Assembly (NCBI GenBank): GCA_903916165.1
Contig: CAIWVR010000107.1
Span: forward strand, 1 to 14,689
Length of the DNA stretch: 14,689 nucleotides
DNA from: an uncultured Hyphomicrobiales bacterium
GTDB taxonomy: Bacteria > Pseudomonadota > Alphaproteobacteria > Rhizobiales > Beijerinckiaceae
Reading direction: 5' to 3'
Shown here: positions 3,109 through 6,090 of the stretch, in pieces
Numbering within the stretch: position 1 is the stretch's first letter
Layout: each line of letters opens with the position of its first letter
Notes under the pieces: generated by a model
Told to the model about the DNA's origin: nothing
Seen by the model: only the letters and a program-made list of their open reading frames with translations
Databases searched by the model: none
Program-made: the position numbers and the translations under genes

Positions 3109-5049
3109 CTACCCCGCCCGCTTCACATCCGGCGCAACCGCCTCATCCGCCAGCGTGCGCAGCGCCTCATCCAGCGTCATCGACGTCTGCGCCTGCGACC
3201 CGAGACGGCGGATCGAGACCGTCTGCTCCGCGGCTTCCTTGCGGCCCACGACCATCAGCACCGGGATCTTGGCGAGCGAATGTTCGCGCACCTTGTAGTT
3301 GATCTTCTCGTTGCGCAGGTCGCCCTCGACCCGCAGGCCCCTCTTGCGGGCGGCCGCAATGATCTCCAGCGCGTAATCATCGGCGTCCTGCGTGATCGTG
3401 CAGACCGTGATCTGCTGTGGCGACAGCCACAGCGGCAGATGGCCGGCGTAATGCTCGATCAGGATGCCGGTGAATCGTTCCAGAGACCCGAACATCGCGC
3501 GGTGGATCATCACCGGCGTCGTCTTCTCGCTGTCGGCGGCGATATAGAAAGCCCCGAAGCGGGTCGGCAGGTTGAAATCGACCTGCGTCGTGCCGCACTG
3601 CCATTCGCGCCCAATCGCGTCACGCAAGGTATATTCGAGTTTCGGACCGTAGAAAGCGCCCTCGCCCGGGTTGATGCCGATCTTGATGCCGCTCTCGCCG
3701 ACCTTGTCGAGCACGCGCGACAGCGCGGCTTCCGCCTTGTCCCAGACATCATCGGAGCCGACGCGCTTTTCAGGACGCGTCGAGAGCTTCAGCACGATGT
3801 CGGTGAAGCCGAAGTCTTCGTAGATCGACATGATGAGATCGTTGATCTCCATCGCCTCGTCCATGATCTGCTCTTCGGTGCAGAAAATATGCGCATCATC
3901 CTGCGTGAACGCGCGCACGCGCATCACGCCATGCAGCGCGCCCGAGGGTTCATAGCGATGCACTGTGCCAAATTCCGCGATCTTCAGCGGCAGGTCGCGA
4001 TAGGATTTCAGCCCGTTCTTGAAGATCTGCACGTGACCCGGGCAGTTCATCGGCTTCAGCGCGAAGACGCGATCATCCTCGGTCTGGGTGATGAACATGT
4101 TTTCACGATAGGTCTGCCAATGGCCGGAGGTTTCCCACAGCGCGCGGTCGAGCACCTGCGGCGTATTCACTTCCGTATAGCCTGCCGCCTGCTGGCGACG
4201 GCGCATGTAGTTGATGAGCGTCTGGAACAAGGTCCAGCCCTTGGCGTGCCAGAAGACCGTGCCCGGACCTTCCTCCTGGAAATGGAAGAGATCCATTTCG
4301 CGCGCGAGGCGGCGATGATCGCGGCGCTCGGCTTCCTCGATCTGCTTCAGATAAGCGTCGAGATCTTCCTGGCGTGCGAAGGCGGTCGCATAGATGCGCG
4401 ACAGCATGGGCTTGGTTGAGTCGCCACGCCAATAGGCACCAGCCACCTTCATCAGCTTGAAGGCCGAGCCGATCTTGCCTGTCGATGTCATATGCGGGCC
4501 GCGACACAGGTCGAGCCAGTCGCCCTGCCTGTAGATCTTCAGGTCCTGGTCAGCGGGGATCGTCTCGACGAGTTCGACCTTGAAGGCCTCGCCCGCCTTT
4601 TCGAAATGCGAGATGGCCTCGGCGCGCGACCAGACTTCACGCACGAAGGGCGCGTCCTTGGCGATGATCTCGCGCATCTTCGTCTCGATCGCGTCAAACT
4701 CTTCGGGCGTGAAGGGCTGATCCTTGCGATAGAAATCATAATAGAAGCCATTGTCGATCACCGGCCCGATCGTGACCTGCGTGCCGGGATAGAGCGTCTG
4801 CACGGCTTCTGCGAGCACATGCGCGCAATCGTGCCGGATCAGCTCCAGCGCGCGGGGATCGTCGCGGTTGATGAAGTCGATACGGGCATCGCGCTCGATC
4901 TTGTCGGCCAGATCGACCACCGCGCCATCGAGCGCCATTGCGATGGTGCGCTTGGCGAGAGAGGGCGAAATCGATTTGGCGATGTCGAGGCCGGTGGCAC
5001 CGGCGGGGAACGCGCGCTGCGCGCCGTCCGGGAAAGTCACGGAAATCAT
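3109..5049 (-). CDS. thrS: Threonyl-tRNA synthetase
   Basis: Full-length class IIa threonyl-tRNA synthetase of 646 residues, which charges tRNA-Thr in the cytoplasm. Domains in order: TGS (1-62); editing/SAD domain (about 65-225) with H73-x3-H77 and C182-x3-H186, which clears mischarged Ser-tRNA; catalytic core (about 240-540) with zinc ligands C336 (MNCPGH), H387 (DDAHIF) and H516 (MIHRAMFGS), motif 2 around [20 protein letters not shown] (360-379) and motif 3 at GSLERF (521-526); and the anticodon-binding domain (about 545-646) with [11 protein letters not shown]. Start ATG at 5049 has AAGGAG 5 bases upstream. The 5' leader carries a hairpin resembling the tRNA-Thr anticodon arm (5071-5088). 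A possible -10 (TATACC, minus 5116-5111) would give a leader of about 55 nt. The terminator at 3045-3079 ends the unit. Confidence 0.99.
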
Positions 5050-5070
5050 GTCGTCTCCTTGCTGCTCACT

Positions 5071-5088
5071 CGCCGATACGAGTCGGCG
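5071..5088 (-). promoter_or_regulatory. Candidate thrS translational operator: anticodon-arm-like hairpin
   Basis: In the thrS leader, CGCCGA-CUCGUA-UCGGCG forms a perfect 6-bp stem whose loop reads C-U-[C-G-U]-A. That equals positions 32-37 of a tRNA-Thr(CGU) anticodon loop, with U33 before the anticodon and A37 after it. The hairpin spans -22 to -39 from the start codon and ends 10 bases before the AAGGAG site (5060-5055). E. coli ThrRS represses its own translation by binding such a mimic at about this position. An alternative hairpin (ACUCG/CGAGU) overlaps it. Function here is inferred. Confidence 0.5.
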
Positions 5089-5194
5089 TAAGCGGTTTCA
5101 TCGAGCGCGCGGTATAACAGCCGACGCCCAAGGCGCAAAGACCGCTCGGGACCGCCCCTCTCCCGCCGGGCGCAAGGAGGACGGGTGCCCTACC

Positions 5195-5479
5195 CTAGTC
5201 CACCGCCTCGCACCGCCAGCGTGCAGACCGCCACGGCGTCAGCGGCGACGCCCCCTCCGGTAATCTGGTGGGTGCGGGGTCATACCCCGCCCCGCCCCAA
5301 GGATTGCAGCGACAGATGCGGGCGAGGCCCATCCAGCCGCCCATCCACAGGCCATGCGCCTGAATGGCGTCGTCCGTATATTCGGAACAGCTGGGCAGGT
5401 AGCGACATTGGCGCCCGATCAGCGACGACAGCGTGAGCTGGTAGGTTCGGATCGCCACATGGGCCAGTTGGCGGGGCAT
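5195..5479 (-). CDS. yidD: Membrane protein insertion efficiency factor YidD
   Basis: A 94-residue protein with the whole YidD signature: IRTYQLTLSSLIGRQCRYLP (10-29), the P-S-C-S-x-Y core at 29-34, HGLWMGGWMGLARICRCNPW (42-61), then GGAGYDP. The three conserved Cys-containing patches and the basic amphipathic N-terminus are typical. YidD is a small inner-membrane-associated protein that assists YidC-dependent insertion. I chose the ATG at 5479 because homology begins there. The frame stays open upstream, with ATGs at 5500, 5509 and 5644, but those residues are encoded by an intergenic repeat and look unnatural. No Shine-Dalgarno precedes 5479 or 5500, possibly because the repeat displaced the native leader. 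It lies between the Fe-S scaffold gene and thrS on the same strand. Confidence 0.93.
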   Translation of the reverse strand: MPRQLAHVAIRTYQLTLSSLIGRQCRYLPSCSEYTDDAIQAHGLWMGGWMGLARICRCNPWGGAGYDPAPTRLPEGASPLTPWRSARWRCEAVD

Positions 5480-5483
5480 ATTG

Positions 5484-5620
5484 GCGGGAGAGAGTGGCAT
5501 GCGCAGCATGACGGGTGAGGGCGGCGCAGTCCATGGCGCGCCGGGCGAAAGGCGATCGGCTGAACCGCCCTCATCCGTCCGGCTTTGCCGGCCACCTTCT
5601 CCCGCCGGAGCGGGAGAAGG
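5484..5620. repeat. Composite intergenic inverted repeat, copy B (left module truncated)
   Basis: Same layout as copy A: a left module remnant (5484-5521: GCGGGAGAGAGTGGCATGCG, then ...CATGACGGGTGAGGG), a 46-bp spacer (5522-5567) and an inverted right module (5568-5620: CCCTCATCCG, CCGGCTTTGCCGG hairpin, CCTTCTCCC...GGGAGAAGG). The right module is 53 bp, as in copy A. The outer arm of the left palindrome is missing exactly where the element meets yidD, 4 bases upstream of its ATG. It lies between the Fe-S scaffold stop (5644) and yidD, both on the minus strand. Confidence 0.85.
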
Positions 5621-5643
5621 ACGCCCACAATCCTCCGAACCCA

Positions 5644-6090
5644 TCAGGACGCCTTCGCCTGCGACCCGGCTTCAACCTTTTCCAGCGCCGCGACCACGGC
5701 GTCGAAGGTGAGCAGCGTGGAGGCATGCCGCGCCTTATAGTCGCGGACCGGCTCGAGCACGGCGACATCCGCCCATTTGCCGGACGGCGGGGCACCATTT
5801 TCTTTCAGCATCCGGCGGACCTGCTCGCGGACATCGCGCAATTCTTGCGCGCTCGAGCCCACGATATAACGCGCCATGATGGAGGAGGACGCCTGCCCCA
5901 GGGCGCAGGCCTTCACGTCATGCGCGAAATCGGACACCACCCCATCCGTCATGGAGAGGTCGACGGTTACCGTCGAGCCGCACAATTTGGAATGGGCTGT
6001 GGAGCTGGCGTCTGGAGCCGCGAGACGACCGAGCCGGGGAATATCGCCGGCGAGTTCCAGGATGCGACGGTTGTAAATATCGTTCAGCAT
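5644..6090 (-). CDS. NifU/IscU-like iron-sulfur cluster scaffold-type protein
   Basis: A 148-residue protein of the IscU/NifU-N fold: MLNDIYNRRILELAGDIPRL at the start, C37 in HSKLCGSTVTVDL, and C62 in DVKACALGQASSSIM, the counterpart of the IscU Y-G-C-G-S-A-I-A-S-S-S segment. Both cysteines align with IscU Cys37 and Cys63. The third ligand (IscU Cys106, in H-C-S) is replaced by Ala123 in the matching H-A-S of YKARHASTLLTF, and the IscU Asp39 position is Ser39. From memory this looks like a trait of an alphaproteobacterial subfamily rather than a mutation. It may bind a cluster differently or act as a carrier. ATG at 6090 was chosen because homology starts there. A perfect TATAAT (minus 6124-6119) lies 28 bases upstream. 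The gene diverges from folE. Confidence 0.88.
   Translation of the reverse strand: MLNDIYNRRILELAGDIPRLGRLAAPDASSTAHSKLCGSTVTVDLSMTDGVVSDFAHDVKACALGQASSSIMARYIVGSSAQELRDVREQVRRMLKENGAPPSGKWADVAVLEPVRDYKARHASTLLTFDAVVAALEKVEAGSQAKAS

Follow-up and report, generated by a model that had tools for sequence, protein, structure and literature searches.

A one-arm mimic of the tRNA-Thr anticodon arm upstream of thrS in Hyphomicrobiales, a probable threonyl-tRNA synthetase operator

The thrS leader in the window

The window (the whole 14,689-nt stretch of DNA that was analysed, from an uncultured Hyphomicrobiales bacterium) carries on its minus strand a thrS gene (3109..5049) coding for a threonyl-tRNA synthetase (ThrRS) of 646 aa, of which residues 4-639, i.e. 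nearly the whole length, align with E. coli ThrRS (1qf6, E 8.4e-213). The A of the AUG start codon is at 5049 and a Shine-Dalgarno (SD) site, AAGGAG, is found at 5055..5060 (-). A yidD-like frame was seen by eye immediately upstream of thrS on the same strand (5195-5644 (-)), and another one near thrS in L089, a locus without the hairpin described below.

The operator-like element, GCUUACGCCGACUCGUAUCGGCGAGUGAGC (5064..5093, minus strand), ends 3 nt before the SD site. Read from 5093 to 5064, it is an 11-bp hairpin in two parts: a lower helix of GCUUA (5089..5093) and UGAGC (5064..5068), indicated by folding and covariation, and an upper helix of CGCCGA (5083..5088) and UCGGCG (5071..5076), in which compensatory changes are found, with a 3' bulge, AG (5069..5070), between them. 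The loop CUCGUA (5077..5082) corresponds in tRNA register to C32, U33, C34, G35, U36 and A37, with U38 at 5076, and its CGU triplet (5078..5080) is a threonine anticodon. An earlier note, made from the sequence of the window, had reported the perfect 6-bp stem and its loop, the position of the loop G35 (5079) and U36 (5078) at -30 and -29 from the start codon, and the ten bases (5070-5061) that separate the stem from AAGGAG (5060-5055). All of these were exact; what had been overlooked is the lower helix, which forms across the 2-nt bulge. The presence of a tRNA-Thr anticodon-arm mimic in the thrS leader is therefore confirmed, and the mimic is larger than first described.

The energy model prefers the adjacent register, where C5088 pairs with G5069 and GA (5070-5071) is bulged, likewise with 11 pairs. 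The predicted leader folds into the hairpin, either in the conserved register or with the bulge shifted by one base, and its stability is unexceptional when compared with shuffles (z -1.12). Covariance model R1, of whose seed the sequence is a member, matched the element with 47.6 bits (E 1.1e-7 in its own whole genome).

Upstream of the hairpin lies a predicted thrS promoter, TTGCGC-N16-TATACC, with its -35-like hexamer at 5133..5138 (-) and its -10-like hexamer at 5111..5116 (-), the latter ending 17 nt before the element. Since a general sigma-70 scan of the window found no site, the promoter rests on conservation: a TTGC, a spacer of 16-18 nt and a TA-type -10 (TATA in 16) precede the hairpin in 20 of the 21 same-genus loci examined, and in 20 of 21 the -10-like site ends 8-19 nt before the element. 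High promoter scores were obtained for 48 of 112 regions of the order versus 2 of 328 control stretches (112 of the 113 elements were scanned, L005 being too short, with a matrix drawn from a consensus). Transcription is predicted to start near 5104, giving a leader of ~55 nt. The earlier note had made its reading depend on the hairpin being transcribed; with a promoter-like site upstream of it, the hairpin should indeed be part of the mRNA.

Conservation and covariation within the order

A grammar scan for a two-helix hairpin with GU in register was positive for 113 of 118 thrS upstream regions of Hyphomicrobiales; this count and those below come from related, partly overlapping genomes (named versus other sets; L055 is identical to L300) and are thus not independent. 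A chance match, against which the earlier note had cautioned, does not account for this result, the 15 other dinucleotides being found in register in 2-17 regions out of 118. When GU was not demanded, the best two-helix hairpin had it in 105 of the 116 regions with a hairpin at threshold, and among dinucleotide shuffles of the order regions the combination of threshold and GU was reached in 75 of 2360. Grammar or covariance model (the model search covered 81 of the 118 loci) together gave 115 of 118, the two regions added by the model being L080 and L088; L040, L055 and L089 had no element by these two means.

The element is present in all 22 same-genus genomes with an intact thrS 5' region (25 were searched, the window included, and in three a contig end cuts thrS). 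That search also took in 16 genomes of the order's other families, 15 of them with the element; 76 of 80 named loci fit the grammar. Of 11 more members of the order sampled later, 9 had it. The two without it, L300 and L364, are from one sister genus in the family of the window. As both element-less genomes (L055/L300 and L364) belong there, the element looks to have been lost in this genus (2 of 2 genomes examined), which may then serve as a natural control for thrS expression. Judged from these leaders, the element occurs across the order, with a small number of losses.

A first plain-text pattern had matched in only 40 of the 80 named loci, because of variant lower helices and of Bradyrhizobium thrS frames that reach further upstream. 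The lower helix is CCA/UGG in Rhizobiaceae and Phyllobacteriaceae, and CCUA/UGGG in Xanthobacter and one Bosea. In Bradyrhizobium and its kin, hairpin and SD site lie ~100-200 nt upstream of the conserved ThrRS start, which points to an N-terminal extension of ThrRS (loci with the hairpin far from the conserved start: L057-L059, L063, L067-L070, L077 and L092).

The 30 rows of the seed alignment (A3) have 98.5% of their cells paired and five pairs that change on both sides, figures which lean towards structure since most rows were selected for pairing. Sliding the partner strand reduced pairing to 21-47%, and RNAalifold recovered the identical 11 pairs from this alignment. For the 53 distinct rows of alignment A4, which was fitted to the model and retains two spurious-looking matches (the second hits of L015 and L025), 95.1% of the cells are paired versus 26-55% when slid; the double-change cells number 84 versus 26.3 in shuffles, and none of 500 shuffles reached 84. 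Among the families of upper stem are CGCCG/CGGCG, CCCGC/GCGGG, CCUGC/GCAGG and CGGGG/CCCCG. On a ThrRS tree (FastTree, 116 ThrRS, i.e. without L041 and L088, 112 of them labelled, no shuffled control), at least 4, 2, 12 and 2 changes were counted for the four upper pairs, and 3 for the type of lower helix. The 3-bp lower helix of a Rhizobium leader (L095) was not formed by the folding program. The alignment of relatives that the earlier note had called for thus has both stem and loop kept in the order, with compensatory changes and with CGU, GGU, UGU or, once, AGU in the loop. That note had also envisaged an open/closed switch through an overlapping ACUCG/CGAGU hairpin. This idea found no support because the alternative hairpin is not conserved, a 5-bp pairing of that type being possible in just 20 of 68 distinct elements.

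The U-G wobble of the lower helix is constant in 30 of 30 seed rows, which favours an RNA and speaks against a DNA palindrome. As an inverted repeat near a promoter-like site, the hairpin could be the target of a transcription factor, or else act as an intrinsic terminator or attenuator. For a DNA site, however, the constant U-G and the variable G-U stem pairs would be mismatches and, for a terminator, no terminator-like site was found at 4900-5700; we give this reading a very slight probability.

The loop and a candidate mechanism

The R1 model was run against 40 whole genomes of the order, with at most 150 candidates scored per genome. The 33 places found at E<=0.3 are, without exception, directly upstream of a thrS frame; of four further places at E 0.6-1, one is. 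In five of the 40 genomes the model found nothing at E<=1; of these five, G027, G030 and G031 fit the grammar. One of the 33 places, on a second contig of G033 (L297, contig 433), precedes a second thrS start, from either a duplicate gene or a mixed assembly.

In tRNA numbering, the loop reads N34-G35-U36, then two bases, then the 3' arm. It has 7 nt in 31 of the 113 elements; in the other 82 it is one nucleotide longer than the 7-nt anticodon loop (8 nt, or 6 plus a closing pair as in the window). At position 34 these elements, for which the scan required GU, have C (78), G (25), U (9) or A (1), so that all four threonine anticodons are represented. On the ThrRS tree, N34 changes at least 28 times and G35-U36 is constant. 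A tRNA-Thr(UGU) is encoded in the window's genome, and its loop, UUUGUAA, falls into this register; no tRNA-Thr(CGU) was found among the 30 of 38 tRNA loci examined in this genome. G35 and U36 serve ThrRS as recognition elements (PMC4267643).

Because it would sit at the 5' end predicted for the mRNA, just before the SD site, the hairpin could be purely structural and ensure mRNA protection or ribosome standby with no recognition by ThrRS. This would leave unexplained a G-U that stays fixed in one loop register when the base next to it and the sequence of the stem vary, and also the thrS-only placement (40 genomes, E<=0.3); we hold it to be unlikely. The mimic would also be seen by any other protein that reads the anticodon loop of tRNA-Thr, e.g. 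a tRNA-modifying enzyme that would tie thrS to tRNA maturation. A modifier of A37 is not required, since 66 of the 113 elements have U and 35 have A at position 37. Against another reader stand the nature of the gene, which is thrS itself, and the binding of a like-shaped arm by ThrRS in E. coli (PMC9976931 and PMC11088916), so that its involvement appears quite improbable.

A T-box-like, tRNA-sensing leader would share with the present one the synthetase gene and the participation of tRNA. Here, though, the loop displays an anticodon and not a threonine codon, and Rfam gave no match at gathering threshold for the window or for 14 loci; such a leader is to our mind hardly credible. Rfam gave no match either for the E. 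coli thrS leader (E up to 1), which makes its silence uninformative as to novelty. A sub-threshold match at 5282-5390, to the lncRNA model MEG3, was taken as chance.

Structure, covariation, an invariant G35-U36, the place upstream of thrS and the layout of E. coli domain 2 are what is directly seen in these leaders. The interpretation of the earlier note, an autoregulatory thrS operator, is very probably correct, with ThrRS as its presumed ligand; as to its form, there is a good probability that the hairpin is a single-arm operator acting on thrS translation through the binding of ThrRS. The anticodon-binding domain of free ThrRS would recognize loop bases G35 and U36 in the way it recognizes those of tRNA-Thr. 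Sitting 3 nt ahead of the SD site, the enzyme would exclude the 30S subunit and so repress its own synthesis; competition of tRNA-Thr for ThrRS would relieve repression. The operator would then act like domain 2 of E. coli, but would consist of one arm, located at the 5' end of a ~55-nt leader. From binding to steric block, tRNA competition and transcription start, these steps are what we infer from the sequences. The order also offers a natural series of variants for ThrRS recognition, with C, G, U or A at position 34 and several stem families.

Leaders beyond the order and known systems

Over the whole class, R1 gave a match at E<=1 in 18 of 289 genomes and at E<0.02 in five, three of the five being from the window's family. 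Around the matches of L125 and L126, which are outside the order (E 0.011-0.012), no thrS-like motif was found within 3 kb. Because so short an element cannot be expected to be picked up in remote whole genomes, thrS upstream regions were read directly. From 104 genomes of other alphaproteobacterial orders, 88 leaders were taken, some with an approximate thrS start (16 were omitted, 15 as mostly broken or poorly matching and one with its start unlocated). By the two-helix grammar, GU is present in 5 of the 88, a count within the range of the other dinucleotides (1-10 of 88). A common core (Y-A, upper helix, NGU plus two nucleotides, upper helix, bulge, U-G), written after the E. coli, order and other-class leaders had been seen, was found with GU in 111 of 118 leaders of the order (other dinucleotides 0-3) and in none of the 88 (others 0-2). 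Both results indicate that the Hyphomicrobiales form is not class-wide. In a looser count of 7-nt loops in the other orders, GU ranked highest (5 regions) for three of the five thresholds tried and not for the remaining two, which is weak on its own. Outside the Alphaproteobacteria, where 49 of 67 genomes were examined (two had no thrS match and 16 were left out), the core with GU was found in 7 of 49 leaders (others 0-2), one of the seven, L321, looking spurious.

Hairpins of other kinds were noticed as well. By eye, in 7 of 10 members of f121, an alphaproteobacterial family outside the order (L268-L271, L273, L276 and L277), CCCGU-UU[AG]GU[GUA]G-ACGGG stands just before the SD site, with a threonine-anticodon loop in which position 34 is variable and G-U fixed; for L271, the energy model closes U-G pairs and yields a smaller loop. 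In family f106, 3 of the 7 leaders inspected by eye (L282, L283 and L287) have, directly behind a TATAAT-like thrS site, hairpins with UGU in a 7-nt loop (GUUGUGU, UGUGUCA and GUUGUUG) and with stems of different sequence. A T-rich run follows the hairpin in L282 and L283, giving it a terminator-like look, and the energy model gives L282 a loop of 5 nt. Upstream of thrS in L275 is a perfect 9-bp hairpin, GGUACCGGG-GUGUUU-CCCGGUACC, with UGU in the same register and a T-rich run behind it. In other classes, domain-2-like hairpins with an ACCACUG 3' flank occur in the thrS leaders of L336, L342, L343, L348, L350 and L353. They have in common with the Hyphomicrobiales element the core, with CGU, GGU or AGU loops, and differ from it in that their upper helix has 7 bp, with one 5' base, and their bulge is CAC and not of the AG type.

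Hyphomicrobiales may have a complete one-arm thrS operator, the single arm being a basic and old (or repeatedly evolved) form of autoregulation of which the two-arm E. coli operator would be a later elaboration. This proposal, in which we place slightly less than even confidence, draws on the one-arm element itself, on the domain-2-like hairpins of other classes and on the NGU hairpins with unlike stems in two alphaproteobacterial families. A minimal one-arm version, kept in a large order to which laboratory rhizobia and methylotrophs belong, allows one to test whether one arm suffices and whether the system is ancestral in Proteobacteria.

We did not find a thrS operator described for Alphaproteobacteria in the literature, of which supplements and subscription papers may mention one: the main texts of PMC2864571, PMC2873474, PMC11109978 and PMC4842269 contain neither 'thrS' nor 'threonyl', and the single mention in PMC2965389 is of E. 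coli ThrRS. In yeast, mRNAs of aminoacyl-tRNA synthetases hold anticodon mimics bound by the synthetase (PMC6542539 and PMC9956033). Binding of a synthetase to mRNA would be common to both; the yeast case is eukaryotic and its architecture different. The control of synthetase genes through a tRNA logic is shared with T-box leaders as well. In T-boxes, tRNA is bound through base pairing to a specifier codon, whereas the present loop imitates the tRNA with its NGU anticodon and no threonine-codon specifier loop is seen.

E. coli ThrRS is the textbook enzyme that recognizes a tRNA mimic in its own message, a property explained by two symmetrical arms on the dimer; structure 1kog is that of ThrRS with domain 2 of the thrS operator. 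The computed fold of the E. coli K-12 leader, from which the domain 2 pairing is taken, has a lower helix, one 5' base, a 7-bp upper helix, the loop UUCGUGU, a 3' bulge CAC and the lower strand, and fits the grammar built for the alphaproteobacterial element (score 23.5). According to two reviews (PMC9976931 and PMC11088916), the E. coli enzyme has two anticodon-like hairpins, domains 2 and 4, as its binding sites, and control passes to MetRS when the loop is changed to the methionine anticodon. On the operator, ThrRS blocks 30S binding (PMC11088916 and PMC3858243), the E. coli studies having used -195 to +65 (PMC3858243).

The parallel with E. coli drawn in the earlier note holds. Both elements stand directly upstream of the thrS ribosome site, with an NGU anticodon-like loop followed by two nucleotides and with G35 and U36 near -30 (-32/-31 in E. 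coli), and both have an upper helix, an asymmetric 3' bulge and a lower helix that opens with A-U then Y-G. Unlike in E. coli, there is one arm instead of two: given that the predicted -10 ends close before the element, there would be no room for a second one, so that the absence of the domain-4-type arm and its linker rests on the promoter prediction. The note's label of 'acceptor-like' for the missing arm does not agree with the reviews, where it is a second anticodon-like hairpin. The leader, at a predicted ~55 nt, the stem sequences and the loop, often one nucleotide longer, differ too. With R1, no match was obtained at the E. coli operator (the best score, 3.0 bits, fell elsewhere in the stretch), hence common descent is not demonstrated. 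To conclude, it appears from the sequences that the working likeness to the E. coli operator is strong and, since the second arm that defines the E. coli type is absent here, the Hyphomicrobiales element is classed as a one-arm variant and not as a two-arm member.
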